DNA of 64,000 nucleotides from contig NZ_WSTA01000001.1 of assembly GCF_009789225.1 (NCBI RefSeq), positions 1-64,000 of the forward strand, in the 5' to 3' direction. Origin of the DNA: Agromyces seonyuensis (GTDB lineage: Bacteria; Actinomycetota; Actinomycetes; Actinomycetales; Microbacteriaceae). Below the pieces are notes generated by a model that saw nothing but the letters and a program-made list of their open reading frames with translations, searched no databases and was not told where the DNA came from. Below are positions 5,474 to 35,405 of this stretch, piece after piece. Position numbers and translations under genes: made by a program. Numbering within the stretch: position 1 is the first letter of the stretch; each line of letters opens with the position of its first letter.

Positions 5474-6649
5474 ATGCAACGACGTTTCCAACGCCTCATC
5501 GCCGGGCCCGGTGCCGTCGGCGTCGCTCTGTCGCTCGGCCTCGTCGCGTCACCCGCCCACGCCGATGACGACGAGCGCTACCGGGTGCTCGTCGTCGGCG
5601 AGACGCTCGGGTTCCGGCACTCGCACATCGACGAAACGACGAACGCCGTCATCGCACTCGGCGCCGAGCACGGCTTCGACGTCGACGTCTGGGACCCGCC
5701 GCAGGGCAACTCGCCCGGCCAGCCGGCGCTCACCCTGCCGAGCAGTCCGTTCACGACCGCCGGCGATCTGGCGAAGTACGCGACGATCATCTTCGCGTCG
5801 CCCGTCGACGGCACCAACAACCTCGACCCCGCCCGCCCGCGCCTGCTCGACGACACCGAGGTCGCCGCCTTCCAGGGCTACATCCGCGGGGGCGGCGGCT
5901 ACGTCGGCCTGCACGCCGCGACCGACACCCTGCACACGGTGCCCTGGTACAGCGAACTCACCGGCGGCGGTGCGCGGTTCCGCAATCACCCGGCGCAGCA
6001 GACCGCGACGATGCGCGTCGAGAACCCGTCGCATCCCTCCACGCAGGGGCTGCCGGCCGAGTGGGTGCGCTTCGACGAGTGGTACAACTACACGACCAAC
6101 CCGCGCGAGGACGTCCACGTGCTCCTCACCCTCGACGAGTCGACGTACACCGGCGGCACGATGGGCGAGGACCACCCGCTGTCCTGGTGCCAGAACTTCG
6201 AGGGCGGGCGCTCCTGGTACGAGGGCGCGGGGCACACGGATGCCTCGTGGACCGACCCGGTGTTCCTCCAGCACATCCTGGGCGGCATCGAATGGACCGC
6301 GGGTCTCACGAGCGGCGGCGGCGACTGCGTGACCTTCGCCGAGGTGGACGCGGTGCTGGCCGGCGTCGGGCTCTCCGACAAGGTCGAGGCGGGCATCGTC
6401 AAGGTCGAGCGGAAGAACCCCACCGCGGGAGCGGCGCTCCGCAAGGCCGCCGAGCGCCTGCACGCGGCGCTCGTCGCGAAGGTCGCAGGCCAACTCGACG
6501 CCGCAGAACTCGCCGCCGACGCGGGGGACACCGCCGGTGCGATCAAGTCGCTCCAGAAGGCGGCCGTGCTCGGGTACGGGTTCGACGACGAGACGTTGCG
6601 CGCGAAGATCGCCGACCTCGTCGAATGGCAGCGAGGCCTCGCGGGCTGA
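5474..6649 (+). CDS. Secreted ThuA-domain protein with a C-terminal helical repeat
   Basis: 391 aa. ATG 5474 follows GGGGGAG (about 5457-5465). An Sec signal peptide is clear: basic MQRRFQR, a hydrophobic stretch, then a cleavage site near ASPAHA-DDDE. Residues about 35-285 form a ThuA (trehalose utilisation) class I amidotransferase-like fold: VLVVGETLGFRHSHI, FQGYIRGGGGYVGLHAATDT, and HPLSWCQNFEGGRSWYEGAGH. The last about 100 residues are alpha-helical with paired Leu/Ala heptads and resemble the FIMAH-type domain of actinobacterial surface enzymes. ThuA proteins are linked to sugar metabolism, but no catalytic role can be assigned here. Confidence 0.85.
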   Translation: MQRRFQRLIAGPGAVGVALSLGLVASPAHADDDERYRVLVVGETLGFRHSHIDETTNAVIALGAEHGFDVDVWDPPQGNSPGQPALTLPSSPFTTAGDLAKYATIIFASPVDGTNNLDPARPRLLDDTEVAAFQGYIRGGGGYVGLHAATDTLHTVPWYSELTGGGARFRNHPAQQTATMRVENPSHPSTQGLPAEWVRFDEWYNYTTNPREDVHVLLTLDESTYTGGTMGEDHPLSWCQNFEGGRSWYEGAGHTDASWTDPVFLQHILGGIEWTAGLTSGGGDCVTFAEVDAVLAGVGLSDKVEAGIVKVERKNPTAGAALRKAAERLHAALVAKVAGQLDAAELAADAGDTAGAIKSLQKAAVLGYGFDDETLRAKIADLVEWQRGLAG

Positions 6650-23096: not shown

Positions 23097-23138
23097 GCGA
23101 TCAGACTGCCATCGATGCGCGGGTCAGATGCGCGCGAT

Positions 23139-23195
23139 CGTCCAGCACGGCAGTGGTTTCGTCCAGGACGCGCTCGTCGTCCACCGTCGTAACCT
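23139..23195 (+). promoter_or_regulatory. Regulon site 1: 21-bp direct repeat upstream of the epimerase-like gene
   Basis: CGTCCAGCA (23139-23147) is repeated as CGTCCAGGA (23160-23168), exactly 21 bp later. TAACCT (23190-23195) is a candidate -10, 49 bp after the TCC of the first repeat. The same arrangement, with motif CGTCCATGC, recurs before 24143, 27441 and (minus strand) 35212. Confidence 0.6.
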
Positions 23196-23246
23196 GCCGG
23201 TTGGCCGTGCCGCAGGGGCGCGGCGTCCAGGAAACGGGTGCCGTGC

Positions 23247-24017
23247 ATGATCCGACTCGAGAGCGCGCAGTTGCAGGTCGAGGTGGATGCGTCCCGCGGC
23301 GGCCGGGTCACGAGCATCCGCACCGACCGGGAGTGGCTCGCCCCGTCGTCCGACGCCCGACCAGGCGCGCGCTACGGGGATGAGGGCGCGGGAGGGTGGG
23401 ACGAGGCGCTGCCGACGATCGGCGGCGAGCCCGACCACGGCGACCTCTGGGACGTCGAGTGGGAGATCCGGCGAGCGACCCGGTCGACGGCGGTGCTCGC
23501 GGCGACGTCGTCGTCGGCCGGCATCGAGCTCGAGCGCACGTTGAGCGTGCAGGGGCGGCGGCTCGGGGCCTCCTACGTCGCGCGGAACATGGGGACCGCG
23601 CCGTCGACGTTCCTCTGGGCGGCGCATGCCCTGTTCGCCGCCGACGACGGGACGATCGCAACGCCGGTCGGGGGCGGACGCTGGTACGTGGAGTATCCGG
23701 CCGGAACCGACCTGCAACGGATGCCCGCGCGCTGGGCGTCGACCCCGCGTTCCGGCGTCAAGGCGTTCGTCCCTGCGGCGGAGGGGGTCGACCTCGTGCA
23801 CGCGGACGGCCCACGCGCCGAGATGCGCTGGCGTCCGAGCGAGATCCCGTGGCTCGGGCTCTACTGGGATACCGGCGAGTTCGGTCCGGGGCCGGTGGTC
23901 GGCCTCGAGCCCACCAACACCGGATCCGACCGTCGGACGTCGTCCTCGTGGACGCTCGCAGCGTCGGCGGAACGACGCTGGCGGTTCGCGCTCGAACTGC
24001 ACCCGGCGCAGCGCTGA
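23247..24017 (+). CDS. Aldose 1-epimerase-like protein (galactose mutarotase superfamily)
   Basis: 256 aa from ATG 23247, with no signal peptide. The beta-sandwich pattern of the galactose mutarotase superfamily is visible: LEVD-like ASRGGRVTSIRTD, WDEALPTIGG, ELERTLSVQGRRLGASYVARNMGTAPSTFLWAAHALF (with the conserved His), and LGLYWDTGEFGPGPVVGLEPTN near the end. It probably interconverts anomers of a sugar released by the cluster enzymes or acts as a carbohydrate-binding homologue. A regulon site lies upstream. Confidence 0.82.
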   Translation: MIRLESAQLQVEVDASRGGRVTSIRTDREWLAPSSDARPGARYGDEGAGGWDEALPTIGGEPDHGDLWDVEWEIRRATRSTAVLAATSSSAGIELERTLSVQGRRLGASYVARNMGTAPSTFLWAAHALFAADDGTIATPVGGGRWYVEYPAGTDLQRMPARWASTPRSGVKAFVPAAEGVDLVHADGPRAEMRWRPSEIPWLGLYWDTGEFGPGPVVGLEPTNTGSDRRTSSSWTLAASAERRWRFALELHPAQR

Positions 24018-24036
24018 TTCCACCATCCCGTCGAAT

Positions 24037-24092
24037 CGTCCATGCTCCGTCCGCTTCCGTCCTGTGGGCGCCCGGGCCCGGCGAGTTAGTTT
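24037..24092 (+). promoter_or_regulatory. Regulon site 2: promoter of the sugar ABC operon
   Basis: CGTCCATGC (24037-24045) is followed 21 bp later by CGTCCTGTG (24058-24066). The -10 TAGTTT (24087-24092) lies exactly 48 bp after the TCC of the first repeat (24039). This is the geometry expected of an AraC-type activator bound next to the -35. Confidence 0.7.
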
Positions 24093-24142
24093 TGCTCGCG
24101 CCCCCAAGAGGCGATCACTACAAGGACGTAAGGACGATCACA

Positions 24143-25444
24143 GTGAAACAACGAAAGATCCTCGCCGGAATCGTCGCGGCCGGAGCGGTCGTCACGATGC
24201 TCGCCGGCTGCAGCAGCGCGAGCGGCGGCTCGGACTCCGGTTCGGTGACGCTCGGCTACATGGGCTGGGTTCCGAAGGCCGACGAGGCCGTCGCCATCTG
24301 GAACGAGGCCCACCCGGACATCCAGGTCGAGTACTCGCCGGTCGCCAACGGGCAGGAGGCGTATCCGAAGATCCGCTCGTCCGTCCAGGCCGGCAACGCG
24401 GGCTGCCTCGCGCAGCTGACCTACGACCAGGTCCCGAGCTTCGTCGCCGACGGCATGCTGCTGGACGTCACGGACGAGACGGCCGACGTCGCGGACACGT
24501 TCCTCGACTGGACGTGGTCGCAGGTCAGCCCGGGCGGCAAGACCTACGCGATCCCGCAGGACACCGGCCCGGTCGCGCTCTACTACCGCGCGGACCTCTT
24601 CGAGCAGTACGGCATCGACGTCCCGGCGACCTGGGACGACTTCGCCGCAGCGGCCGAGCAGGTGCACGCCGCCGACCCCGAGGTCACCCTCAGCTACCTC
24701 GCGACCGACGACTCGAGTACGGTCGCCGCCTACGCCTGGCAGCGCGGCGCCTCCTGGTTCTCGATCGACGGCGACAGCTGGAAGGTCGGCATCGATGACG
24801 CCGCGAGCCTCGAGTCCGCCGAGTACTGGCAGGGCCTGCTCGACTCCGGCGCCATCGCCACGACGAAGCGCTGGGACCCCGGCTTCTACAGCGAGCTGGC
24901 CAGCGGCAAGTACCTCTCCATGATCGGCGCCGCGTGGAACACCGCGCTCATCACCGCGAACGTCGGCGACACCGCCGGCGCCTGGCGCGTCGCCCCGATG
25001 CCTACGGACGGCGACTCCACGGACACCGCGAACTCCGGCGGCTCCGCCGTGGCCGTGCTGAAGGGCTGCGAGCACCCCGAGCAGGCGGTCGAGTTCGCGA
25101 CCTGGCTGAACTCGTCGGAGGAGAGCCTCGACATCCTGGCCGCCTCCGACGGCGGCGGCCTGTACCCCGCGGCGACCGAGGCCCTCGACTACGACGTCGT
25201 CAACCAGGCCGACGACTTCTTCGGCGGGCAGAACCTCAACGAGGTCTTCAAGGAATCCGCGCAGAACGTCAACACGTCCTGGGCGTGGGGCCCGACCTAC
25301 TCGTCGACCGACACCGCCCTGACCGACGGGCTCTCGAAGGTCGCCACGGGATCGTCGACGCTGCCCGACCTCATGGGCTCGCTCCAGGACTCGACGCTCA
25401 GCGACATGGAAGACCGAGGGATCTCGGCCATCCCCGCGGACTGA
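24143..25444 (+). CDS. Sugar ABC transporter substrate-binding lipoprotein
   Basis: 433 aa. GTG 24143 has AGGA 8 nt upstream. The signal peptide VKQRKILAGIVAAGAVVTMLAGC ends at a lipobox, Cys 23. The mature protein is an extracellular solute-binding protein of family 1 (MalE-like): LGYMGWVPKADEAVAIWNEAHPDIQVEY, KTYAIPQDTGPVALYYRADLFEQYGI and AWRVAPMPTDGD. It delivers an oligosaccharide to the two permeases that follow. The ATPase is not encoded here, as is common for actinobacterial sugar transporters that share MsiK. Confidence 0.93.
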   Translation: MKQRKILAGIVAAGAVVTMLAGCSSASGGSDSGSVTLGYMGWVPKADEAVAIWNEAHPDIQVEYSPVANGQEAYPKIRSSVQAGNAGCLAQLTYDQVPSFVADGMLLDVTDETADVADTFLDWTWSQVSPGGKTYAIPQDTGPVALYYRADLFEQYGIDVPATWDDFAAAAEQVHAADPEVTLSYLATDDSSTVAAYAWQRGASWFSIDGDSWKVGIDDAASLESAEYWQGLLDSGAIATTKRWDPGFYSELASGKYLSMIGAAWNTALITANVGDTAGAWRVAPMPTDGDSTDTANSGGSAVAVLKGCEHPEQAVEFATWLNSSEESLDILAASDGGGLYPAATEALDYDVVNQADDFFGGQNLNEVFKESAQNVNTSWAWGPTYSSTDTALTDGLSKVATGSSTLPDLMGSLQDSTLSDMEDRGISAIPAD

Positions 25445-25447
25445 TCG

Positions 25448-26392
25448 ATGACCGCAGCACCGCTGATCGACCGCAGGGCGGGTTCGGAACTCCGACCCGC
25501 CCTGCGGCGCAGGCCGACGCGCTTCCGCGGCGCGATCCTTATGTTCACCGTGCCCTTCATGGCGCTGTTCGTGTTCGTCTACGTCGCCCCGATCATCTAC
25601 TCGGTGGTCCAGAGCCTGTTCGCGACCCAATCCAGCGGCCTCGGCTTCGGCGAGCCGGAACAGGTGTTCGTGGGAGCGGCCAACTACGCGAAGGCCCTCG
25701 GCGATACCGAATTCTGGGCGGCCCTCGGGCGCATCCTGCTCTTCGGGATCGTCCAGGTTCCCGTCATGCTCGGCGGCGCCCTGCTCCTGGCGCTGCTGCT
25801 CGACTCCGCCGCCGCACGCTGGGTGAGCGTGTACCGGGTGCTCTACTTCCTCCCGTACGCGGTGCCCGGCGTGATCGCCGCGGTGCTCTGGGCGTACCTG
25901 TACTCGCCGGCGCTCAGTCCGTTCGTGGCCTGGGGCGATTCGATGGGCATCGACCTCGACTTCCTCGGCCCGAACGTCGTGCTGTGGTCGATGGCGAACA
26001 TCACCACCTGGGTGTTCATGGGCTACAACCTCTTGATCATCCTGTCCTCGCTGCAGGCGATCCCGCGCGACCAGTTCGAGGCGGCCCGCCTCGACGGCGC
26101 GTCCGAATGGCGCATCGCCTGGTCGATCAAGGTGCCGCAGGTGCGGCCCGCCCTGGTGCTGACCGGCGTCAACTCGATCATCGGCACGTTGCAGCTCTTC
26201 AACGAGCCCCAGGTGATGCACGTCATCGCCGACGCCGTGAGCAGCAGCTACGTGCCGACGATGCTCGCCATGGGCGCGGCCTTCGTGAAGAACGACTTCG
26301 GGTACGCCTCGGCGGTCTCGGTGCTGCTCGCCATCGTCGCGGGGCTCATCTCGATCGTCTACTACCGGATCGCCATGAGGAGCGACGCGTGA
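25448..26392 (+). CDS. Sugar ABC transporter permease (MalF-type)
   Basis: 314 aa, six helices. The cytoplasmic EAA loop is visible: RDQFEAARLDGASEWRIAWSIKVPQVRPAL (about residues 208-237), which contacts the ATPase. It starts 3 nt after the binding-protein stop and overlaps the second permease by 4 nt (GTGA). Together they form the pore for the sugar bound by the lipoprotein. Confidence 0.93.
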   Translation: MTAAPLIDRRAGSELRPALRRRPTRFRGAILMFTVPFMALFVFVYVAPIIYSVVQSLFATQSSGLGFGEPEQVFVGAANYAKALGDTEFWAALGRILLFGIVQVPVMLGGALLLALLLDSAAARWVSVYRVLYFLPYAVPGVIAAVLWAYLYSPALSPFVAWGDSMGIDLDFLGPNVVLWSMANITTWVFMGYNLLIILSSLQAIPRDQFEAARLDGASEWRIAWSIKVPQVRPALVLTGVNSIIGTLQLFNEPQVMHVIADAVSSSYVPTMLAMGAAFVKNDFGYASAVSVLLAIVAGLISIVYYRIAMRSDA

Positions 26393-27309
26393 CCGCAACA
26401 CTTCCCCCGAAGGCCGCCGTCGACGAGGGGGCGCGGCGTCAGCGGCGCCGGCGCGACGACGCCGAACCCGAGCTCACCGTGAGCCGCGGCGCCGCCATCG
26501 CGACGCTGGGCGCGCTGACTCTCGCGGCCGTCTACTTCCTCATCCCGATCTGGTGGCTGATCGTCTCCTCCACGAAGAGCAACACCGCCCTGTTCAACTC
26601 GAACGGCTTCTGGTTCTCGGATCTGAGCCTGATCGACAACGTCGTGGACGTCTTCACCCGGCAGAACGGGCTCTTCAGCCGCTGGCTGCTGAACTCGGTG
26701 CTCTACGCCGGGGTGGGCGGCATCCTCGCGACGCTCCTCGGCGTCGCATGCGGCTACGCGATCGCGAAGTACGAGTTCCGCGGGCGCGGCCTGCTCTTCG
26801 GCACGATCCTCGGCGGGCTCCTGCTCCCGGCGGCGCTGCTGACGGTGCCGCTGTACCTGATGTTCTCGCAGATCGGGCTCGTGAACTCCGTCTGGGCGGT
26901 CATCATCCCCGCTCTGGTCAACCCGTTCGCCGTCTACCTCGGCCGGGTCTACGCGGCTGCGAGCGTGCCCGACGAGCTGATCGAGGCGGCGCGCCTGGAC
27001 GGCGCCGGGGAGCTGCGGATCTTCTTCACCATCGGACTGCGGCTCATGTCGCCGGCGCTCGTGACGGTGTTCCTGTTCACGTTCGTGTCCATCTGGAACA
27101 ACTTCTTCCTGCCGCTCATCATGCTCACCGATCAGTCGCTCTACCCGGTCACGCTCGGCCTCTACAACTGGTACACGGCCACGCGCGAGGCGAACTACAA
27201 CGTCGTCATCACGGGCTCGCTGATCTCGGTGATCCCGCTCGTGGTGGCGTTCCTCAGCCTCCAGCGCTTCTGGCGCGCCGGCCTGTCGGCCGGAAGCGTC
27301 AAGTCCTGA
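26389..27309 (+). CDS. Sugar ABC transporter permease (MalG-type)
   Basis: 306 aa from GTG 26389. After a basic cytoplasmic N-terminus (RRQRRRRDDAE) come six helices and the EAA loop PDELIEAARLDGAGELRIFFTIGLRLMSPALV (about residues 195-226). It ends with LQRFWRAGLSAGSVKS, the typical C-terminal tail of the family. It is the last gene of the binding protein-permease operon; the next promoter begins 70 bp later. Confidence 0.93.
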   Translation: MTATLPPKAAVDEGARRQRRRRDDAEPELTVSRGAAIATLGALTLAAVYFLIPIWWLIVSSTKSNTALFNSNGFWFSDLSLIDNVVDVFTRQNGLFSRWLLNSVLYAGVGGILATLLGVACGYAIAKYEFRGRGLLFGTILGGLLLPAALLTVPLYLMFSQIGLVNSVWAVIIPALVNPFAVYLGRVYAAASVPDELIEAARLDGAGELRIFFTIGLRLMSPALVTVFLFTFVSIWNNFFLPLIMLTDQSLYPVTLGLYNWYTATREANYNVVITGSLISVIPLVVAFLSLQRFWRAGLSAGSVKS

Positions 27310-27325
27310 CCTGCGATCGAATGCG

Positions 27326-27433
27326 TCCATACCGCCGCCCGCAATCCTGATTCCACCGGCAACGCGCCGGAGCGATTCATCCATGCACGTCCACCGATCG
27401 GCCTGTCTGCCGTTCTCGGTGCCGAACTAGCTT
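27326..27433 (+). promoter_or_regulatory. Regulon site 3: promoter of the DUF5107-TPR gene
   Basis: CATCCATGC (27378-27386) is followed 21 bp later by CGGCCTGTC (27399-27407). The -10 TAGCTT (27428-27433) lies exactly 48 bp after the TCC at 27380 and 7 nt before ATG 27441 (leaderless). A further copy, CGTCCATAC (27324-27332), lies upstream. CTGATTCCACC occurs here (27347-27357) and also at 24014-24024 before site 2. Confidence 0.7.
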
Positions 27434-27440
27434 GAGAGAC

Positions 27441-30400
27441 ATGAGCGACCGAACCTCCCACATCCGACTCCCCGCTCCGCCCCCCGCCGAGCAGGCGCTC
27501 CTCGACGACGGCGGAGTCGCCTGCTGGGAGGAGGACGTCGAGATCGACACCTACGAGCCCGGTGCCCCGGACCGGTTCCCGATGTTCTTCGACCACCGCG
27601 TCTACCAGGGCTCGGACGGCCGCGTCTACCCGCTCCCGTTCGTCGACCGCATCGAGACCGAGCCGGTGCGGCGCACCTGGAAGGCGATCCACCTGGAGAA
27701 CCGGTGGGTGCGGCTCATGCTCCTGCCGGAGATCGGCGGGCGGATCCACATCGGCTACGACAAGACCCGCGACTACGACTTCTTCTACCGCAACAACGTG
27801 ATCAAGCCGGCGCTCGTCGGTCTCGGCGGGCCGTGGATCTCGGGCGGCGTCGAGTTCAACTGGCCCCAGCATCACCGACCGGGCACGTATCTGCCGGTGG
27901 ACGTGCACGTCGAACGCGGCGACGACGGCAGCGCGACCGTCTGGCACAGCGATCTCGACCCGCTGCAGCGCATGCGGGGCACGCACGGGGTCCGTCTGCG
28001 GCCCGACTCGTCGACCATCGAGGTCGAGGCGAAGCTCTTCAATCGCACCGACGAGCCCCAGACGTTCCTCTGGTGGGCCAACGTCGCCGCGGCCGTCCAC
28101 GAGGAGTACCAGTCGTTCTTCCCGACGGACGTCCGCTACGTCGCCGATCACGCGCGCCGCGCGATCACCGCCTTCCCGCGCGCCGACCGCCCGTACTACG
28201 GGGTCGACTATCCGGAACTGGCGGCGCACGACGCGGATGCCGATCGCCTCGACGTGTATTCGCACATCCCGGTGCCGACCTCGTACATGGTCACCGAGAC
28301 GGCCGACGAGTTCTTCGGCGGCTACGACCACCGCGCGGGGGCGGGATTCGTGCACTGGGCGGATCGCGACATCGCACCCGGGAAGAAGCAGTGGACGTGG
28401 GGCAACGGGCCCATCGGCCACGCCTGGGACCGGCAGCTCACCGACGGCGACGGCCCCTACGTCGAGCTCATGGCCGGGGTCTTCACCGACAACCAGCCCG
28501 ACTTCAGCTACCTCCTGCCCGGCGAGACCCGGTCGTTCAGCCAGTTCTGGTACCCGATCCAGGACGTCGGCGTCATCCACCAGGCCTCGCGCGACGCCGC
28601 GCTCAGCGTGCGCGTCGACGGTACGGACGTCGTCGTGGGCATCGCGCCCTCCCGCCCGGTGGACGCGGAGGCGGTCGTGGAACTCGAGGGTCGGATCGTG
28701 GCGCGCGCGCAGTTCCGGGCGGAGCCCGGGTCGCCCTATTCGCTCAGCGCCGCGGTCCCGCCCGGCACCACGCGGGACGACCTCGTCGTCACCGTGCACG
28801 AGGGCGGCCGGGAGCTCGTGACCTGGCGGCGCCACGCCCCGATCGACGGCGAGCCGTGGGCGGCGACCGAGCCTCCGGCCGCCGCGAGCCTCGACTCGAT
28901 CGACGAACTGCTGCTCACCGCGCAGCACCTCGTGCAGTACCGCCACCCGACCCGTGCCGCCGAGCCCTATCTGCGCCGGGCGCTCGAACTCGATCCGGAT
29001 GACTCGCGGGCCCACCTGGCCCTCGCCGAACTGGCGTTGGTCCGGGGCAGCTATGATGACGCCCTCGGCCACGTCGAGGATGCCGCCCGACGGCTGACGC
29101 GACGGAACCTGAACCCGCGAACCGGCGAGCTGCACTACCGTCGCGGACTCGTCCTCGAGCGGCTCGGCGATCTCGAGGAGGCGGCCCGTTCCTTCGCCAA
29201 GGCCGGGTGGGACGGCGCCTTCGCCGTCGCCGCCCGACTCGGGCTGGCCCGGGTGCTGCTGCGGCTGGGCCGGAACGAGCAGGCGGAGGCCGCCGCGGCC
29301 CGGGCGGTCGAGCTCGATGCGGCCAACACGACCGCGATCGCCGCCCTGGTGCTCGCGCGACGGCGCCTCGGTGCCGCCGAGGCCGCCGCGAGCGTGCTCG
29401 ACGCGGCGCGCGCCGCCGACCCCCTCGACCCGTTCCTCGCGGCCCTCGCCGGCGACCTCGGACTGCGCGACCCGCGCACCGCCCTGACGATCGCCCAGGA
29501 CTTCGCCCGGCACGGCGAAGTCGAGTCGTCCCTCGAGTGGGCCGCGCGCTCGGAGCTCGCCGGGCCGACGGTCTTCGGCAACACGGGCCCGGTCGCCGGC
29601 TACACCCGCGCGCTCGTCCTCGATCGCGCCGGCCGCGCGGCGGAAGCCGTCGAGGCGCGGGAGGCGGCACGTCGCGCGAACCGCGACCTGGCGTTCCCCG
29701 CCGGGCTCGACGACCTCGATGCGCTGACGGCGGCGATCGCCGCGGGCGAGACGGCCGGCGAGCCCGACACCGTGGCGCTCGGGCTGCTGGGCAGTCTCCT
29801 CCTCGGCGTCCGCCGCCACGAGGAAGCGCGGGACGTCCTCGTCGCAGCCGTGCTCGGCGGCAGCGACGACCCGGTGGTGCTCCGCAATGCGGCGGTCGCA
29901 GTCGCGAACACCGGCGGAGACCTGGACCTCGCCGACGGCTTCCTGGCGCAGGCGTTCCGCGCCGACGGCCCGGTGCCGAGCGCCCGCCTCGTCTACGAGC
30001 GCGACCAGCTCGCACGGCTGCGCGGGATCGACGGCGCGGCGCGCCTGGCCGCGATCGAATCCTCCGGCGTCGACGTCTTCCGTCGCGACGACCTGACGAT
30101 CGCCGTGCTCGGGCTCCTGCTCGACGTCGACCGGGTCGAGGAGGCCCGCGCGATCCTCGCTTCGCGTCGGTTCCAGCCCTTCGAAGGAGGTGAGGGTCTG
30201 GTGATCGCCGCCTTCGACCGCGCCACGCTCGTGACCGCGCGCCGCCTGCTCGACGTCGATCCGGCGGCCGCCGCCGCGCTGCTGGAGGCCGCCGTCGACG
30301 TGCCGGAGAATCTCGGCGAGGGCCGTCATCCGGCCGACCCCGCTGCGGAACTGCTGGTGCTCGCCGGCGACGCGCACCTTGCCACCGGCGCCGTGGAATC

Positions 30401-30734
30401 CGCGGAAGCGCGCTGGCGGGCCGCGCGCGACGCGGGCGGCCCGCTGGCCGTCGCACCGCGACCGGCCCGGCCCGACGACTTCTGGATCGGCGCGGCGCAC
30501 CTCCGGCTGGGGGAGTACCCGGAGGCCGACGCGGTGTGGGCCGCGCTGGATGCCTCGGCGCTCGCGCTCGAGGATGCCTACCCGACACCGGACTACTTCG
30601 CGACGTCGCTGCCCGAGACGCTGCTGTTCGCCGTCGACGACGCGCGAGGTCGTACCGCCGCGGCCGCGGAGCTGCGCGAGGCTGCTTCCCGCGGACGCGC
30701 CCTCTCGGCCGAGCGGGCGGAGGTGCGCGCGTGA
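27441..30734 (+). CDS. DUF5107 and TPR-repeat protein of a carbohydrate cluster
   Basis: 1097 aa, no signal peptide. Residues about 45-375 form the DUF5107 domain, a galactose-mutarotase-like beta-sandwich: WKAIHLENRWVRLMLLPEIGGRI, YDKTRDYDFFYRNNVIKPALVGLGGPWISGGVEFNWPQHHRP and ETRSFSQFWYPIQDVG. From about residue 480 to the end are tetratricopeptide-type helical pairs (AEPYLRRALELDPDDSRAHLALAELALVRGSYDDAL). ATG 27441 is 7 nt after TAGCTT. It is followed by GH35 with a GTGA overlap. DUF5107-TPR proteins recur in saccharide loci, but their reaction is not established. Confidence 0.88.
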   Translation: MSDRTSHIRLPAPPPAEQALLDDGGVACWEEDVEIDTYEPGAPDRFPMFFDHRVYQGSDGRVYPLPFVDRIETEPVRRTWKAIHLENRWVRLMLLPEIGGRIHIGYDKTRDYDFFYRNNVIKPALVGLGGPWISGGVEFNWPQHHRPGTYLPVDVHVERGDDGSATVWHSDLDPLQRMRGTHGVRLRPDSSTIEVEAKLFNRTDEPQTFLWWANVAAAVHEEYQSFFPTDVRYVADHARRAITAFPRADRPYYGVDYPELAAHDADADRLDVYSHIPVPTSYMVTETADEFFGGYDHRAGAGFVHWADRDIAPGKKQWTWGNGPIGHAWDRQLTDGDGPYVELMAGVFTDNQPDFSYLLPGETRSFSQFWYPIQDVGVIHQASRDAALSVRVDGTDVVVGIAPSRPVDAEAVVELEGRIVARAQFRAEPGSPYSLSAAVPPGTTRDDLVVTVHEGGRELVTWRRHAPIDGEPWAATEPPAAASLDSIDELLLTAQHLVQYRHPTRAAEPYLRRALELDPDDSRAHLALAELALVRGSYDDALGHVEDAARRLTRRNLNPRTGELHYRRGLVLERLGDLEEAARSFAKAGWDGAFAVAARLGLARVLLRLGRNEQAEAAAARAVELDAANTTAIAALVLARRRLGAAEAAASVLDAARAADPLDPFLAALAGDLGLRDPRTALTIAQDFARHGEVESSLEWAARSELAGPTVFGNTGPVAGYTRALVLDRAGRAAEAVEAREAARRANRDLAFPAGLDDLDALTAAIAAGETAGEPDTVALGLLGSLLLGVRRHEEARDVLVAAVLGGSDDPVVLRNAAVAVANTGGDLDLADGFLAQAFRADGPVPSARLVYERDQLARLRGIDGAARLAAIESSGVDVFRRDDLTIAVLGLLLDVDRVEEARAILASRRFQPFEGGEGLVIAAFDRATLVTARRLLDVDPAAAAALLEAAVDVPENLGEGRHPADPAAELLVLAGDAHLATGAVESAEARWRAARDAGGPLAVAPRPARPDDFWIGAAHLRLGEYPEADAVWAALDASALALEDAYPTPDYFATSLPETLLFAVDDARGRTAAAAELREAASRGRALSAERAEVRA

Positions 30735-33028
30735 GCGCCGCCTCGCCGCGCAGGGCGCCGCTCACGCTCCGGCACACGCCGTGGGGAGCGCCGCCGTCTC
30801 CGCCGGCGATGGCGAACGAGATCGACGCCCGACCCGGACTGGCCCTGACCTCCCGCTCCCTCGTGCGCAACGGTCGCCCCTGGATCCCGGTCTCCGGCGA
30901 ACTGCACTATTCGCGGGTTCCGCGGGAGCGCTGGCGCGAGCGGCTCCAGCTCATGCGCTCGGGCGGCATCGACGTCGTCGCGACCTACGTGTTCTGGCTC
31001 CACCACCAGCCGCAGCCGGGCGAAGCCCGGTTCGACGGCCGGCTCGACGTCGCCGAGTTCATCCGGCTGTGCGCGGAGCTCGAGCTCGAGCTGATCCTGC
31101 GGATCGGCCCCTGGTGCCATGGGGAGGCGCGCAACGGCGGGTTCCCCGACTGGGTGCAGGCCGCGCCGGTGGCCCATCGCACCGACGATCCGGGCTATCT
31201 CGAGCTCGTCGCGGACTGGTTCGCCCGCCTCTCGGCCGAGATCGCACCGCTGTGCGGTCCCGACGGCCCGATCATCGGCATCCAGATCGAGAACGAGCTC
31301 TACGACCAGCCGCAGCACCTCGCCACGCTGAAGGGCATGGCCCGCGAGCTCGGCATGACGGCGCCGCTGTACACCGCGACCGCATGGGGCGGTGCGGAAC
31401 TGCCCGGAGCAGAGCTCTTCCCGCTGTACTCCGGCTACGGCGACGGCTTCTGGGTCGACGCCGACGCCCCGTGGGACGCGACGTTCCGCCAGCACTTCTT
31501 CTTCAGCGACCAGTGGGACGACCCCGGCGTCGGCGCCGACGTCCGCGGCGTCGACATCACGGACGTCGCGGTCAAGGAGCGGGACGACCGGTTCCCCCCG
31601 GCCACGTGCGAACTCGGCGGCGGCATGGCGACGCCGTACCATCGTCGGGTCGTGCCGGCAGGAGCGGACATCGCGGCCGTGGCGAATGCGAAGCTCGGCA
31701 GCGGTTCCGCGTGGCAGGGCTACTACATGTACGCGGGCGGCACGAACCCCGCCGACCGCGGCCCGATGCAGGAGTCGCACGAGACGGGGTATCCCAACGA
31801 CCTGCCCGTCTTCGACTACGACTTCCACGCGGCGATCGGCGCCGCCGGCGATCTCGGTCCGAGCCACTCGGCCCTGCGACGCCAGCACGCCTTCATCGCC
31901 GCGTTCGGGGCCGAGCTCGCCGGGATGCCGGCGAGCTTCCCGGATGCGTCGCCGAGCGGACCCGAGGATGCCACGACCCTCCGGTGGGCCCTCCGCAGCG
32001 ACGGCCGCCGCGGGTTCGTCTTCGTCAACTGGCACCAGCCGCACGTGCCGCTGCCGCCGCGGCACGGGGTCCGATTCCGCCTCGAGCTCCCCGGCGGCGA
32101 GCGGACCATCGGCGGCGCCGGCCTCGACATCCGGCCCGGCGTCGTGGCGCGTTGGCCCTTCGGCCTCGACGTCGGCGGCGTCGAGCTGCTGTGGGCCAGC
32201 GCCAGCGCCCTCACGGTGCTGGGCGAGGACACCCTGGTGCTCGTCGCCGACTCGGTCGATGACGTGCGGTTCGCGGTCGATCCGGGGGTCGACGTCGTCG
32301 GCGCCGAACTCGGGCTCGACGGCGCGTTCGTCGTCGACGGCGAGACGGGCGGCCTCGTGGAACTCGTCCGCGGCGACGCGCGCGGCACGCTCCTCGTCGT
32401 CGGCCACGAGGACGCCGAGCGGGTCTGGGTCCTCGAGCGTCCGCATCGCCGGCTGCTCCGGTCCGCCTCGCCGATCTGGAGCGACGGCGACCGCCTCGGC
32501 GTGCGATCGGCGTCGCTCCCGGCGGTCTCGGAATGGCGGGGGGCGTGGATGCCTCTCGACCTCGCCGCGGAGGCGACGGGCACGGGCCGCGACGACGTGG
32601 CGATCCTGCAGACCCGCGACGCGGGTGAGCCGTCGGCGGGCTACGGCACGTTCGCGGGGCGTCCCTCCGCACCGGACACGGCATGGCGAGCCGGCATCGG
32701 CGCCACCTGGCGGCTCGGGGATCTCGGGGCTCCGGTCGACGGGCTCCGGCGCACCCTCGAAGTCGTGTGGGCGGGCGACGTCGCCGAACTCCTCGTGGAC
32801 GACGTCGTGGTGGCCGACCGGTTCTGGGACGGCACCGTCTGGCGCATCGACCTCGACGCCCTCGACGGGGCCGTCGCGGACCGAGCGGTCATCCGCATCA
32901 CCCCGATCGCCCGTGAGAGCCCGGTCTGGCTGGCTCCGGCGGCCGCGGACCGGTTGCGGGCGGGTGCCGCCGCGACGGCCTCCCTCGACGGCGTCGTGCT
33001 CGTGCGCTCCGCGATCTGGCGGGCATGA
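30731..33028 (+). CDS. Glycoside hydrolase family 35 beta-galactosidase
   Basis: 765 aa, cytoplasmic. Family signatures: VSGELHYSRVPRERWRERL at the start of the barrel, IGPWCHGEARNGGFPDW, the acid/base in IGIQIENELYDQP (Glu about 187-189) and the nucleophile in CELGGGM (Glu about 294). The later domains are beta-rich. It releases beta-linked galactose from the imported oligosaccharide. It overlaps both neighbours by 4 nt (GTGA and ATGA), so the DUF5107-TPR protein, GH35 and the AraC regulator are one operon. Confidence 0.92.
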   Translation: MSAASPRRAPLTLRHTPWGAPPSPPAMANEIDARPGLALTSRSLVRNGRPWIPVSGELHYSRVPRERWRERLQLMRSGGIDVVATYVFWLHHQPQPGEARFDGRLDVAEFIRLCAELELELILRIGPWCHGEARNGGFPDWVQAAPVAHRTDDPGYLELVADWFARLSAEIAPLCGPDGPIIGIQIENELYDQPQHLATLKGMARELGMTAPLYTATAWGGAELPGAELFPLYSGYGDGFWVDADAPWDATFRQHFFFSDQWDDPGVGADVRGVDITDVAVKERDDRFPPATCELGGGMATPYHRRVVPAGADIAAVANAKLGSGSAWQGYYMYAGGTNPADRGPMQESHETGYPNDLPVFDYDFHAAIGAAGDLGPSHSALRRQHAFIAAFGAELAGMPASFPDASPSGPEDATTLRWALRSDGRRGFVFVNWHQPHVPLPPRHGVRFRLELPGGERTIGGAGLDIRPGVVARWPFGLDVGGVELLWASASALTVLGEDTLVLVADSVDDVRFAVDPGVDVVGAELGLDGAFVVDGETGGLVELVRGDARGTLLVVGHEDAERVWVLERPHRRLLRSASPIWSDGDRLGVRSASLPAVSEWRGAWMPLDLAAEATGTGRDDVAILQTRDAGEPSAGYGTFAGRPSAPDTAWRAGIGATWRLGDLGAPVDGLRRTLEVVWAGDVAELLVDDVVVADRFWDGTVWRIDLDALDGAVADRAVIRITPIARESPVWLAPAAADRLRAGAAATASLDGVVLVRSAIWRA

Positions 33029-33957
33029 GCTCGGCCGTACCGATCCGGTCGGCTCCCCGGGTTACTGCGGTCGACCCGTGGCACGATATCCGGATGAAAC
33101 TCGCCGAGGGGTTCGCGAACGAGCGCGTCTGCATCGTGCCGCGGCCGCTCGTGCAGGAGGCGCTCGCCCGCCCCGTGACCCGACGGCTCGTCGTCACCGA
33201 CGCCGGGCTCTTCCCGGAAGCACGCCATCACGAGCGCGCCCGCCCGAACGGCGCGGACGAGGCGATCGTCATCGTCTGCACGAGCGGCGCGGGCTGGGTC
33301 GAGGTCGCGGGGGTCCGTGCCGGGGTCGGCGCCGGGTCGGCGGTCGTCATCCCGAGCGGCGTTCCGCACCGCTACGCCTCCTCCGACACGTCGCCCTGGA
33401 CGATCTGGTGGTGCCACCTGCGCGGATCGGACGTCGACGAACTGCTCGCCGCAGCCGGCGCGAGTGCCGAGCGGCCGGTGCTCCAGTTGCGCGGCGTCGA
33501 ACGGATCGTCGCGCTGATCGACGAGATCATCACGTCGATGGAGCGCTCGACCTCGCCCGTGCGGCTGCTCGCGGCAGCCGGGAACGCGTGGAAGCTGCTG
33601 ACCCAGATCGCCGTGGACCGTGCGACGCCCGAACGCGGCGACCCGCTCGAGCGGGCGATGTCCTACCTCGAGGAGCGCGTCGACGGTGCGGTGAAAGTGC
33701 CCGAGCTCGCGGCGATGGTCGGCGTGTCCTCCTCGCACCTGGGCGCGCTGTTCCGCGCCGCCACCGGCGGGGGAGTGCTGGCCTACCAGACCGGGCTCCG
33801 GATGTCGCGGGCTCGGCAACTGCTGGACGGGAGCACCCTCGGCATCGCGGAGATCGCGATCGCGACCGGCTACCAGGACCCGCTCTACTTCTCGCGGCTC
33901 TTCAGCCGGACCCACGGCACGAGCCCGAGCCGGTACCGGGCGCAGCGGAAGGGATAG
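33025..33957 (+). CDS. AraC-family regulator, candidate activator of the galactoside cluster
   Basis: 310 aa from the ATG overlapping the GH35 stop (33025); ATG 33094 (MKLAEGFANERVCIVPRPL) is a possible alternative start. The N-terminal cupin (AIVIVCTSGAGWVEVAGVRAGVGAGSAVVIPSGVPHRYASSD) senses the sugar. The C-terminal helix-turn-helix pair has LAAMVGVSSSHLGALFRAATGGG and IAEIAIATGYQDPLYFSRLFSRTHGTSPSRYR. It is the only AraC protein in the cluster and so the likely reader of the four 21-bp repeat sites. Confidence 0.9.
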   Translation: MSSAVPIRSAPRVTAVDPWHDIRMKLAEGFANERVCIVPRPLVQEALARPVTRRLVVTDAGLFPEARHHERARPNGADEAIVIVCTSGAGWVEVAGVRAGVGAGSAVVIPSGVPHRYASSDTSPWTIWWCHLRGSDVDELLAAAGASAERPVLQLRGVERIVALIDEIITSMERSTSPVRLLAAAGNAWKLLTQIAVDRATPERGDPLERAMSYLEERVDGAVKVPELAAMVGVSSSHLGALFRAATGGGVLAYQTGLRMSRARQLLDGSTLGIAEIAIATGYQDPLYFSRLFSRTHGTSPSRYRAQRKG

Positions 33958-33973
33958 CAGCCCGAGGGGGCCG

Positions 33974-35212
33974 TCACGCCCGGCCGAGGATGATCGCGTT
34001 CGCGCGGCGCTGCCAGGCCGTGTCCGCCCACATCGGGTGGTGGGGTGCTGCGTTCGACGTCGGCACCGCCCCCCAGGCGCCCTCCGCGGCCGCCGCCCTC
34101 AGGCCGGTCTCGGCGAGGTCGGTGCCGACCGGGCCGTCCTCGAACCGCGCATGGAGGGGCGTGTAGCCGACCCAGCCCTCGCCGATCACGAACGGCACGT
34201 CGCGACGGCGGGACCACGCCCCGATCGCCTGGACGCGCGAGCGGATCTCGCGGTGCATGAGTTCGCGGTAGTCGCCGTAGTGGTCGTAGAGCCAGAGATC
34301 CCACCGTCGCGGATCGATGCAGTCGTACGTGTACAGCATCTGGTCGGTGATCACGGTCGCCTCGAGCCGCCAGGCCTCGGGCCGCCCGTACTCGGCGAAC
34401 GACGGCGCGTCCTCGCGCAGCAGCGCACGCAGTTCCGAGTTCGGGAAGCCGGCGGAGCCGGTCTCGCGGACGTCGATCCGATCCTGCAGCGCTTCCAGCA
34501 CCCCGTAGGCGTAGACGTGGAACTGGCCGACCGCGAGGCGCGACGGGAGCCCGGCGAGATCGAGATGGGGCGGCTTGCCGTAGCTCACCGTCGCCGGGAC
34601 CGTCGGATGCCGGAGGGTGAGCGCTTCGAGGGCGTCGTCGACGGCCTCGGCCGCACTCGGGGTTCCGGAGAAGTCGACCTCGTTGTGCAGTTCGACGAAT
34701 GCCACGCGTTCGAGGTGCCCGGCCGCTTCGAGCGCATCGAGCAGGTCGCCGGTCGCGTCCGCGAGCGCGTGCAGGCGTTCGTCGTGGGGCACCCCGGCGA
34801 GGTAGCGCCACCAGTCCGGATCGGCGGCGAAGGCCGCCGACTGCTGGTACTCCCAGGAGGAGAGGATGACGACCACCTCGTGCCGAGCCGCCGCGTCGAA
34901 GAGCCGGAGCAGCCGGTCGCGCAGGTCGATCGCGAAGCCGCCGCGCACGTCGTACCACCGTGTGGCGTCGCCGTAGAAGCCGCCGTCGCGGGCTCCGAGG
35001 CCCGAGATGCCGAGCCGCGGCGGCAGCGCTCCGTCCCCGGACGCCGCGAGGTGCATCGGGGCGGCGCAGATCCGGACCGCGTTGTAGCCGCGATCGACCG
35101 CTTCGCGCATCGCCAGATCCAGATCGGCGTAGGGCTCGCCGGTTCCCGCACGCGTGTACCAGGAGAAATCCCACAGGGTGATGGCCAGTCGATCGGGCAG
35201 GTGAGCACGCAC
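33974..35212 (-). CDS. Cellulase-like TIM-barrel glycoside hydrolase
   Basis: 412 aa with no signal peptide. It begins LAITLWDFSWYTRAGTGEPYADLDLAMREAVDRGYNAVRIC, the opening of 'cellulase-like' (GH5-related) proteins of actinobacteria. FVELHNEVDFSG (about residue 175) carries the likely acid/base Glu after Asn, and FVIGEGWVGYTPL near residue 320 the likely nucleophile. GTG 35212 is 7 nt after the -10 TAGCGT. The shared promoter motif puts it in the galactoside regulon. Its glycosidic bond specificity is not known. Confidence 0.8.
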   Translation of the reverse strand: MRAHLPDRLAITLWDFSWYTRAGTGEPYADLDLAMREAVDRGYNAVRICAAPMHLAASGDGALPPRLGISGLGARDGGFYGDATRWYDVRGGFAIDLRDRLLRLFDAAARHEVVVILSSWEYQQSAAFAADPDWWRYLAGVPHDERLHALADATGDLLDALEAAGHLERVAFVELHNEVDFSGTPSAAEAVDDALEALTLRHPTVPATVSYGKPPHLDLAGLPSRLAVGQFHVYAYGVLEALQDRIDVRETGSAGFPNSELRALLREDAPSFAEYGRPEAWRLEATVITDQMLYTYDCIDPRRWDLWLYDHYGDYRELMHREIRSRVQAIGAWSRRRDVPFVIGEGWVGYTPLHARFEDGPVGTDLAETGLRAAAAEGAWGAVPTSNAAPHHPMWADTAWQRRANAIILGRA

Positions 35213-35219
35213 CGTCCCG

Positions 35220-35275
35220 ACGCTAGCCGCCGCACCTCCGGACCGGGATGGGCGGACGGATGCTCCGCATGGACG
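35220..35275 (-). promoter_or_regulatory. Regulon site 4: leaderless promoter of the cellulase-like gene
   Basis: On the minus strand, CGTCCATGC (35275-35267) is followed 21 bp later by CGCCCATCC (35254-35246). The -10 TAGCGT (35225-35220) starts exactly 48 bp after the TCC at 35273 and lies 7 nt before GTG 35212. Confidence 0.7.
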
Positions 35276-35405
35276 ATCTGCGGGCTCGAGGCGACGGGTG
35301 CCGTTCGCGGACGGCGCGGTGCCCGTCGCGTCTCGTCGGGTTCGATGCCCACGCGGCATCCTGCCTCGGTACCCCCGTCGCCGCACGGGAGGGCATGATT
35401 TCGAT

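Follow-up and report, generated by a model that had tools for sequence, protein, structure and literature searches.

The window analyzed here, a stretch of 64,000 nucleotides from Agromyces seonyuensis, contains a sugar-utilization locus that encodes an ABC transporter, a DUF5107-TPR protein, a putative beta-galactosidase of the GH35 family, an AraC-family regulator and, on the opposite strand, a cellulase-like protein (Table 1). Three promoters of this locus, those of the ABC operon, the DUF5107 operon and the cellulase-like gene, are preceded by the same element, a 21-bp direct repeat of the form GAATCGTCCATG-N9-GATCGgCCATG. As the initial annotation had read it, the distance from TCC to the TANNNT -10 hexamer downstream is exactly 48 bp at all three sites (24037, 27378 and, on the reverse strand, 35275). 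Alignment of the three window sites with 28 sites from relatives resolves two similar half-sites in direct orientation, approximately 21 bp apart. The true repeat unit is GATCGtCCATG; the second half originally described, CGNCC, is a degenerate form of this unit.

Table 1. Operators, promoters and genes of the sugar-utilization locus (positions in the window).
Feature	Positions	Strand	Comments
Candidate site A, before epimerase-like gene	23133..23170	+	TCGTCCAG twice, at an interval of 21 bp; TAACCT at 49; unproven
Operator B, before ABC operon	24031..24068	+	Half-sites 24033-24044 (GAATCGTCCATG) and 24054-24065 (weaker); matrix rank 3, 14.5 bits
-10 TAGTTT	24087..24092	+	48 bp from TCC; from sequence and spacing test
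Sugar ABC operon	24143..27309	+	SBP 24143-25444, permeases 25448-26392 and 26389-27309; Pfam SBP_bac_1, BPD_transp_1
Operator C, before DUF5107 operon	27372..27409	+	Half-sites 27374-27385 and 27395-27406; matrix rank 2, 16.8 bits; footprint in relatives
-10 TAGCTT	27428..27433	+	48 bp from TCC; ATG 27441 after 7 nt
DUF5107-TPR gene, first in operon	27441..30734	+	Pfam DUF5107, E 3.5e-47; start predicted from homologs and the location of the -10
GH35 family glycoside hydrolase (putative beta-galactosidase)	30734..33028	+	Pfam Glyco_hydro_35, E 7.9e-51
AraC-family protein, predicted to read the operators	33094..33957	+	Pfam HTH_18, AraC_binding
Cellulase-like gene	33974..35212	-	Pfam Cellulase-like, E 2e-24
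-10 TAGCGT	35220..35225	-	48 bp from TCC; GTG 35212 after 7 nt; from sequence and spacing test
Operator D, before cellulase-like gene	35244..35281	-	Half-sites 35279-35268 and 35258-35247; matrix rank 1, 19.9 bits

The start codons of the DUF5107 and cellulase-like genes follow the -10 hexamer after only 6-7 nt, and the same gap is found at DUF5107 in most relatives, which implies that the mRNAs of these two genes are probably leaderless. The leader of the ABC operon is roughly 45-50 nt long. An additional CGTCCATAC word (27318-27355), located 54 bp upstream of operator C, is weak (2.0 bits, rank 12 in the window) and is possibly an accessory half-site.

The word itself proves nothing, given that the bare CGTCCATGC with one mismatch occurs at background frequency, without enrichment in the window (29 found and 30.5 expected). 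Likewise, when up to two mismatches are allowed, the two-part pattern CGTCCATGC-N12-CGNCC has about 1,100 matches genome-wide and is useless by itself; its only two exact matches in the genome are sites B and D. The spacing is far more selective. Pattern searches of the 3.9 Mb genome yielded 15 matches to TCCATGC-N{26,56}-TANNNT, with spacings of 33-63, and the spacing of 48 occurs only at B, C and D (binomial P ~0.01 for at least three matches at one given spacing, computed before counting the clustering of these three sites within ~11 kb). The initial annotation had called for such a search and had stated that a motif frequent among unrelated promoters at random spacing would speak against a common operator; B, C and D do not show this pattern.

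Furthermore, with a matrix built exclusively from 28 sites of other Agromyces genomes, D, C and B come first, second and third among the ~128,000 window positions, and these sites again occupy the top three ranks when the matrix is extended to include the -10. An earlier matrix, based on just 10 DUF5107 sites, placed B fifth in the window. A sequence-only covariance model, applied to the organism's own genome, gave 24 bits for D, 14.8 for C and 12.2 for B amid partial chance matches, and was less selective than the ungapped matrix.

The repeat had originally been assigned to four promoters, and the fourth of these, before the epimerase-like gene, did not fare as well. With the 28-site matrix, site A (23139) reaches -0.1 bits and rank 31; a phylum-wide matrix gives it 1.4 bits and rank 13. 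The epimerase-like gene has only distant relatives, with at most 39% identity, in 4 of the 59 other Agromyces genomes, too distant for footprinting of site A within the genus. Given these low scores and distant relatives, site A is an unproven candidate, inseparable from background. It is nevertheless kept as a candidate because, in relatives, epimerase-like genes are found behind such sites (L078:6032 and L080:11701, by reading of the sequence, and L241, with an epimerase homolog downstream).

The regulator shows the domain organization typical of the AraC family, namely an N-terminal sugar-binding cupin (Pfam AraC_binding, E 2.6e-17) and a C-terminal double HTH (HTH_18, E 1e-19; HTH_AraC, E 2.3e-12), and its best match in PDB is the AraC DNA-binding domain (2k9s). 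The best NCBIfam match is the E. coli AraC model NF007860, at 89.9 bits, below the curated cut-off of 208. By this test, the protein is classified as a relative and not as an arabinose AraC. Two candidate starts were identified, ATG 33094, which agrees with the homologs, and ATG 33025, which forms an ATGA overlap with the GH35 stop codon.

Orthologs of the DUF5107 protein are encoded in 25 other Agromyces genomes, and upstream of ten of these genes we find GAATCGTCCATGC, followed, 21 bp from its start, by a GATCGgCCATGT-like word and then by a TAGCGT-like hexamer. In most close relatives, the locus begins with a site, followed by the solute-binding protein (SBP) gene, two permease genes and the AraC gene in reverse orientation; a second site and DUF5107 come next, often with the cellulase-like and GH35 genes behind them. 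In the window, the AraC gene is instead located behind the GH35 gene and the cellulase-like gene lies outside the operon, and all three separate promoters still have their own site. The site of operator B is also present at the promoters of SBP orthologs in relatives, and those of four genomes (G056, G041, G021 and G050) were recovered by a model trained without them. AraC and DUF5107 are present in exactly the same 26 of the 60 Agromyces genomes, i.e., DUF5107 is found in all 26 AraC-positive genomes and in none of the 34 AraC-negative ones. Sites above 26.1 bits occur in 18 of the AraC-positive genomes and in none that lack AraC (Fisher P 1.7e-9); since AraC-positive loci had served to train the model, only the absence elsewhere counts as independent evidence. 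One genome that lacks both AraC and DUF5107 (G037; L158:4736, G037:C1 near 616735) has a single orphan operator with no TANNNT at 48. Its two flanks correspond to the sequences that border the locus on either side in relatives, so that it is apparently a deletion scar.

The same arrangement extends beyond the genus. Among 80 actinobacterial loci (Microbacterium, Demequina, Herbiconiux, Cryobacterium, Planotetraspora and others, including a few Agromyces loci that had already served for training), 91 sites score above 14 bits, compared to 0-4 for each of 20 column-permuted matrices. In these 91 sites, TANNNT is located at 48 bp in 51 cases and at 49 bp in 16, with no occurrence elsewhere in the range of 24 to 75; in the non-redundant set of 80 sites, 62 have TANNNT at 48 or 49, and none has it at another distance between 24 and 70. 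Most of the sites that lack it contain TTGACT in the same position, and because the start codon in most cases follows 6-7 nt further on, we interpret TTGACT as a variant -10. For example, TTGACT replaces TANNNT at 48/49 in the loci of AraC orthologs from Streptosporangiaceae and Asanoa (L222, L238, L241, L245 and L254, near 5978-5988), where the target also differs, being a short-chain dehydrogenase, judged by sequence, in L245, L254 and L238 and an epimerase homolog in L241.

In 90 of 124 distinct AraC orthologs, a site above 8 bits is found in the divergent 320 bp, compared to 2.6% of random segments. Approximately one quarter of the orthologs have no scoring site in this region, including most of the Arthrobacter-type loci in the set. 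Eight loci of the latter type (L230, L231, L235, L236, L240, L244, L250 and L258) encode both AraC and DUF5107 and have no site above 14 bits; the operator may have diverged in this group.

Very probably, the three sugar-utilization promoters constitute one AraC regulon in the Agromyces genome, and an arrangement of this kind recurs beside the regulator in many actinobacteria. With the -10 set at -12 to -7, the two TCC words map to about -60 and -39. The centre of the repeat is then close to -49, a fixed position that places the proximal half-site over the -35 region; in most sites, no good -35 hexamer is found under this half-site. The repeat, the phasing, the conservation and the co-occurrence are all apparent in the sequences themselves. 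Given the ranks obtained with the window-free matrix, the spacing test, the conservation, the co-occurrence, the divergent sites and the 21-bp direct-repeat form, which has been reported for other AraC-family motifs (PMC3870299), we conclude with considerable confidence that the operators are read by the AraC-family protein encoded at 33094-33957, which would activate from a half-site over the -35 region. Thus, for three of the four promoters, no other explanation is as well supported as the original proposal of AraC-type half-sites next to the -35, and its choice of the AraC gene (given at 33025) as the predicted reader agrees with the position of this gene, divergent from the operator in most relatives, and with its co-occurrence with DUF5107 and strong operators. 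The weak second half of operator B, and the AraC orthologs in which the divergent region has no scoring site, are points against this reading.

We propose that one subunit of an AraC dimer would bind each of the half-sites and that, with a sugar in the N-terminal cupin, AraC would recruit RNA polymerase to the promoters of the ABC transporter, of DUF5107-GH35-araC and of the cellulase-like gene. The GH35 gene suggests that the sugar is plausibly a galactoside. If araC is co-transcribed at the end of one of its own target operons, positive feedback would result.

Conservation by itself does not separate activation from repression, and the sign of regulation is deduced from the geometry. It is conceivable, albeit unlikely, that AraC binds the operator but for the most part represses, or represses until the ligand turns it into an activator: the operator is located near the divergent araC start in relatives, which makes autorepression geometrically easy, and E. 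coli AraC has a dual action (PMC7408454). However, simple repression allows varied positions, whereas the strict 48/49 phasing and the lack of good -35 hexamers fit activation. We consider it quite improbable that the operator belongs to another regulator that travels with the locus while the AraC protein reads something else. The orthologs without a nearby scoring site are compatible with such a scenario, and so is the analysis of covariation between AraC orthologs and their sites, where the signal was dominated by phylogeny and yielded no base-residue contact. Nevertheless, the shared neighbour is the AraC gene, with sites in its divergent upstream region in many genera; in loci of the Streptosporangiaceae type, which yielded no DUF5107 gene, the site is still found next to AraC; and the 21-bp direct repeat is itself a form known in the AraC family. 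The constant distance to the -10 and the missing consensus -35 could also suggest that the block is part of a promoter for a sigma factor (e.g., of the ECF type), but promoter -35 boxes are located ~16-19 bp from the -10, whereas this element begins more than 48 bp upstream, is ~33 bp long and contains a 21-bp direct repeat, so that we give this explanation very little credence. Chance similarity in a GC-rich genome, to which the background frequency of the bare 9-mer and perhaps site A could be attributed, is contradicted for B, C and D by the spacing test, the conservation in relatives and the permuted-matrix control, and can practically be dismissed.

Activation by the AraC-family protein would mean that a regulator, its operator and the geometry of the promoters can be assigned to a conserved sugar-utilization locus, the central protein of which, DUF5107, has no known function. 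The rigid spacing translates into a simple search rule for additional target genes and into a natural test set for the action of AraC-type activators on leaderless mRNAs and where a promoter lacks a good -35. A broader generalization, on which we see the chances as evenly balanced, is that leaderless sugar-degradation genes are under the control of a phylum-wide AraC subfamily by way of a composite promoter, where the operator takes the place of the -35 at a rigid distance of 48 or 49 bp from the -10, such that the targets of this subfamily, including DUF5107, could be called from sequence alone. A literature search, to which subscription journals were mostly inaccessible, did not recover a description of this regulon, and for DUF5107 it returned a sole mention, in a marine protist genomics paper.

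Among known systems, E. coli AraC at araBAD is similar in that an AraC-family protein employs two direct-repeat half-sites, the downstream one over the -35 region (PMC7408454). The araI1-I2 repeat is centred at -52.5 and partly overlaps the -35 (PMC7408454), compared to a centre near -49 in Agromyces. The half-site sequence is different, and the Agromyces regulon consists of GH35, DUF5107 and ABC genes, with targets that are probably leaderless. The AraC-family rhamnose regulators characterized by comparative genomics (PMC3870299) belong to Bacillales, Bacteroides and Enterococcus, and differ in their motifs and in controlling rhamnose genes. RhaS and RhaR of E. coli are likewise AraC-family activators of sugar operons, but their operators are inverted repeats (with 17-bp half-sites for RhaR; PMC3870299), in contrast to the direct repeats of Agromyces.
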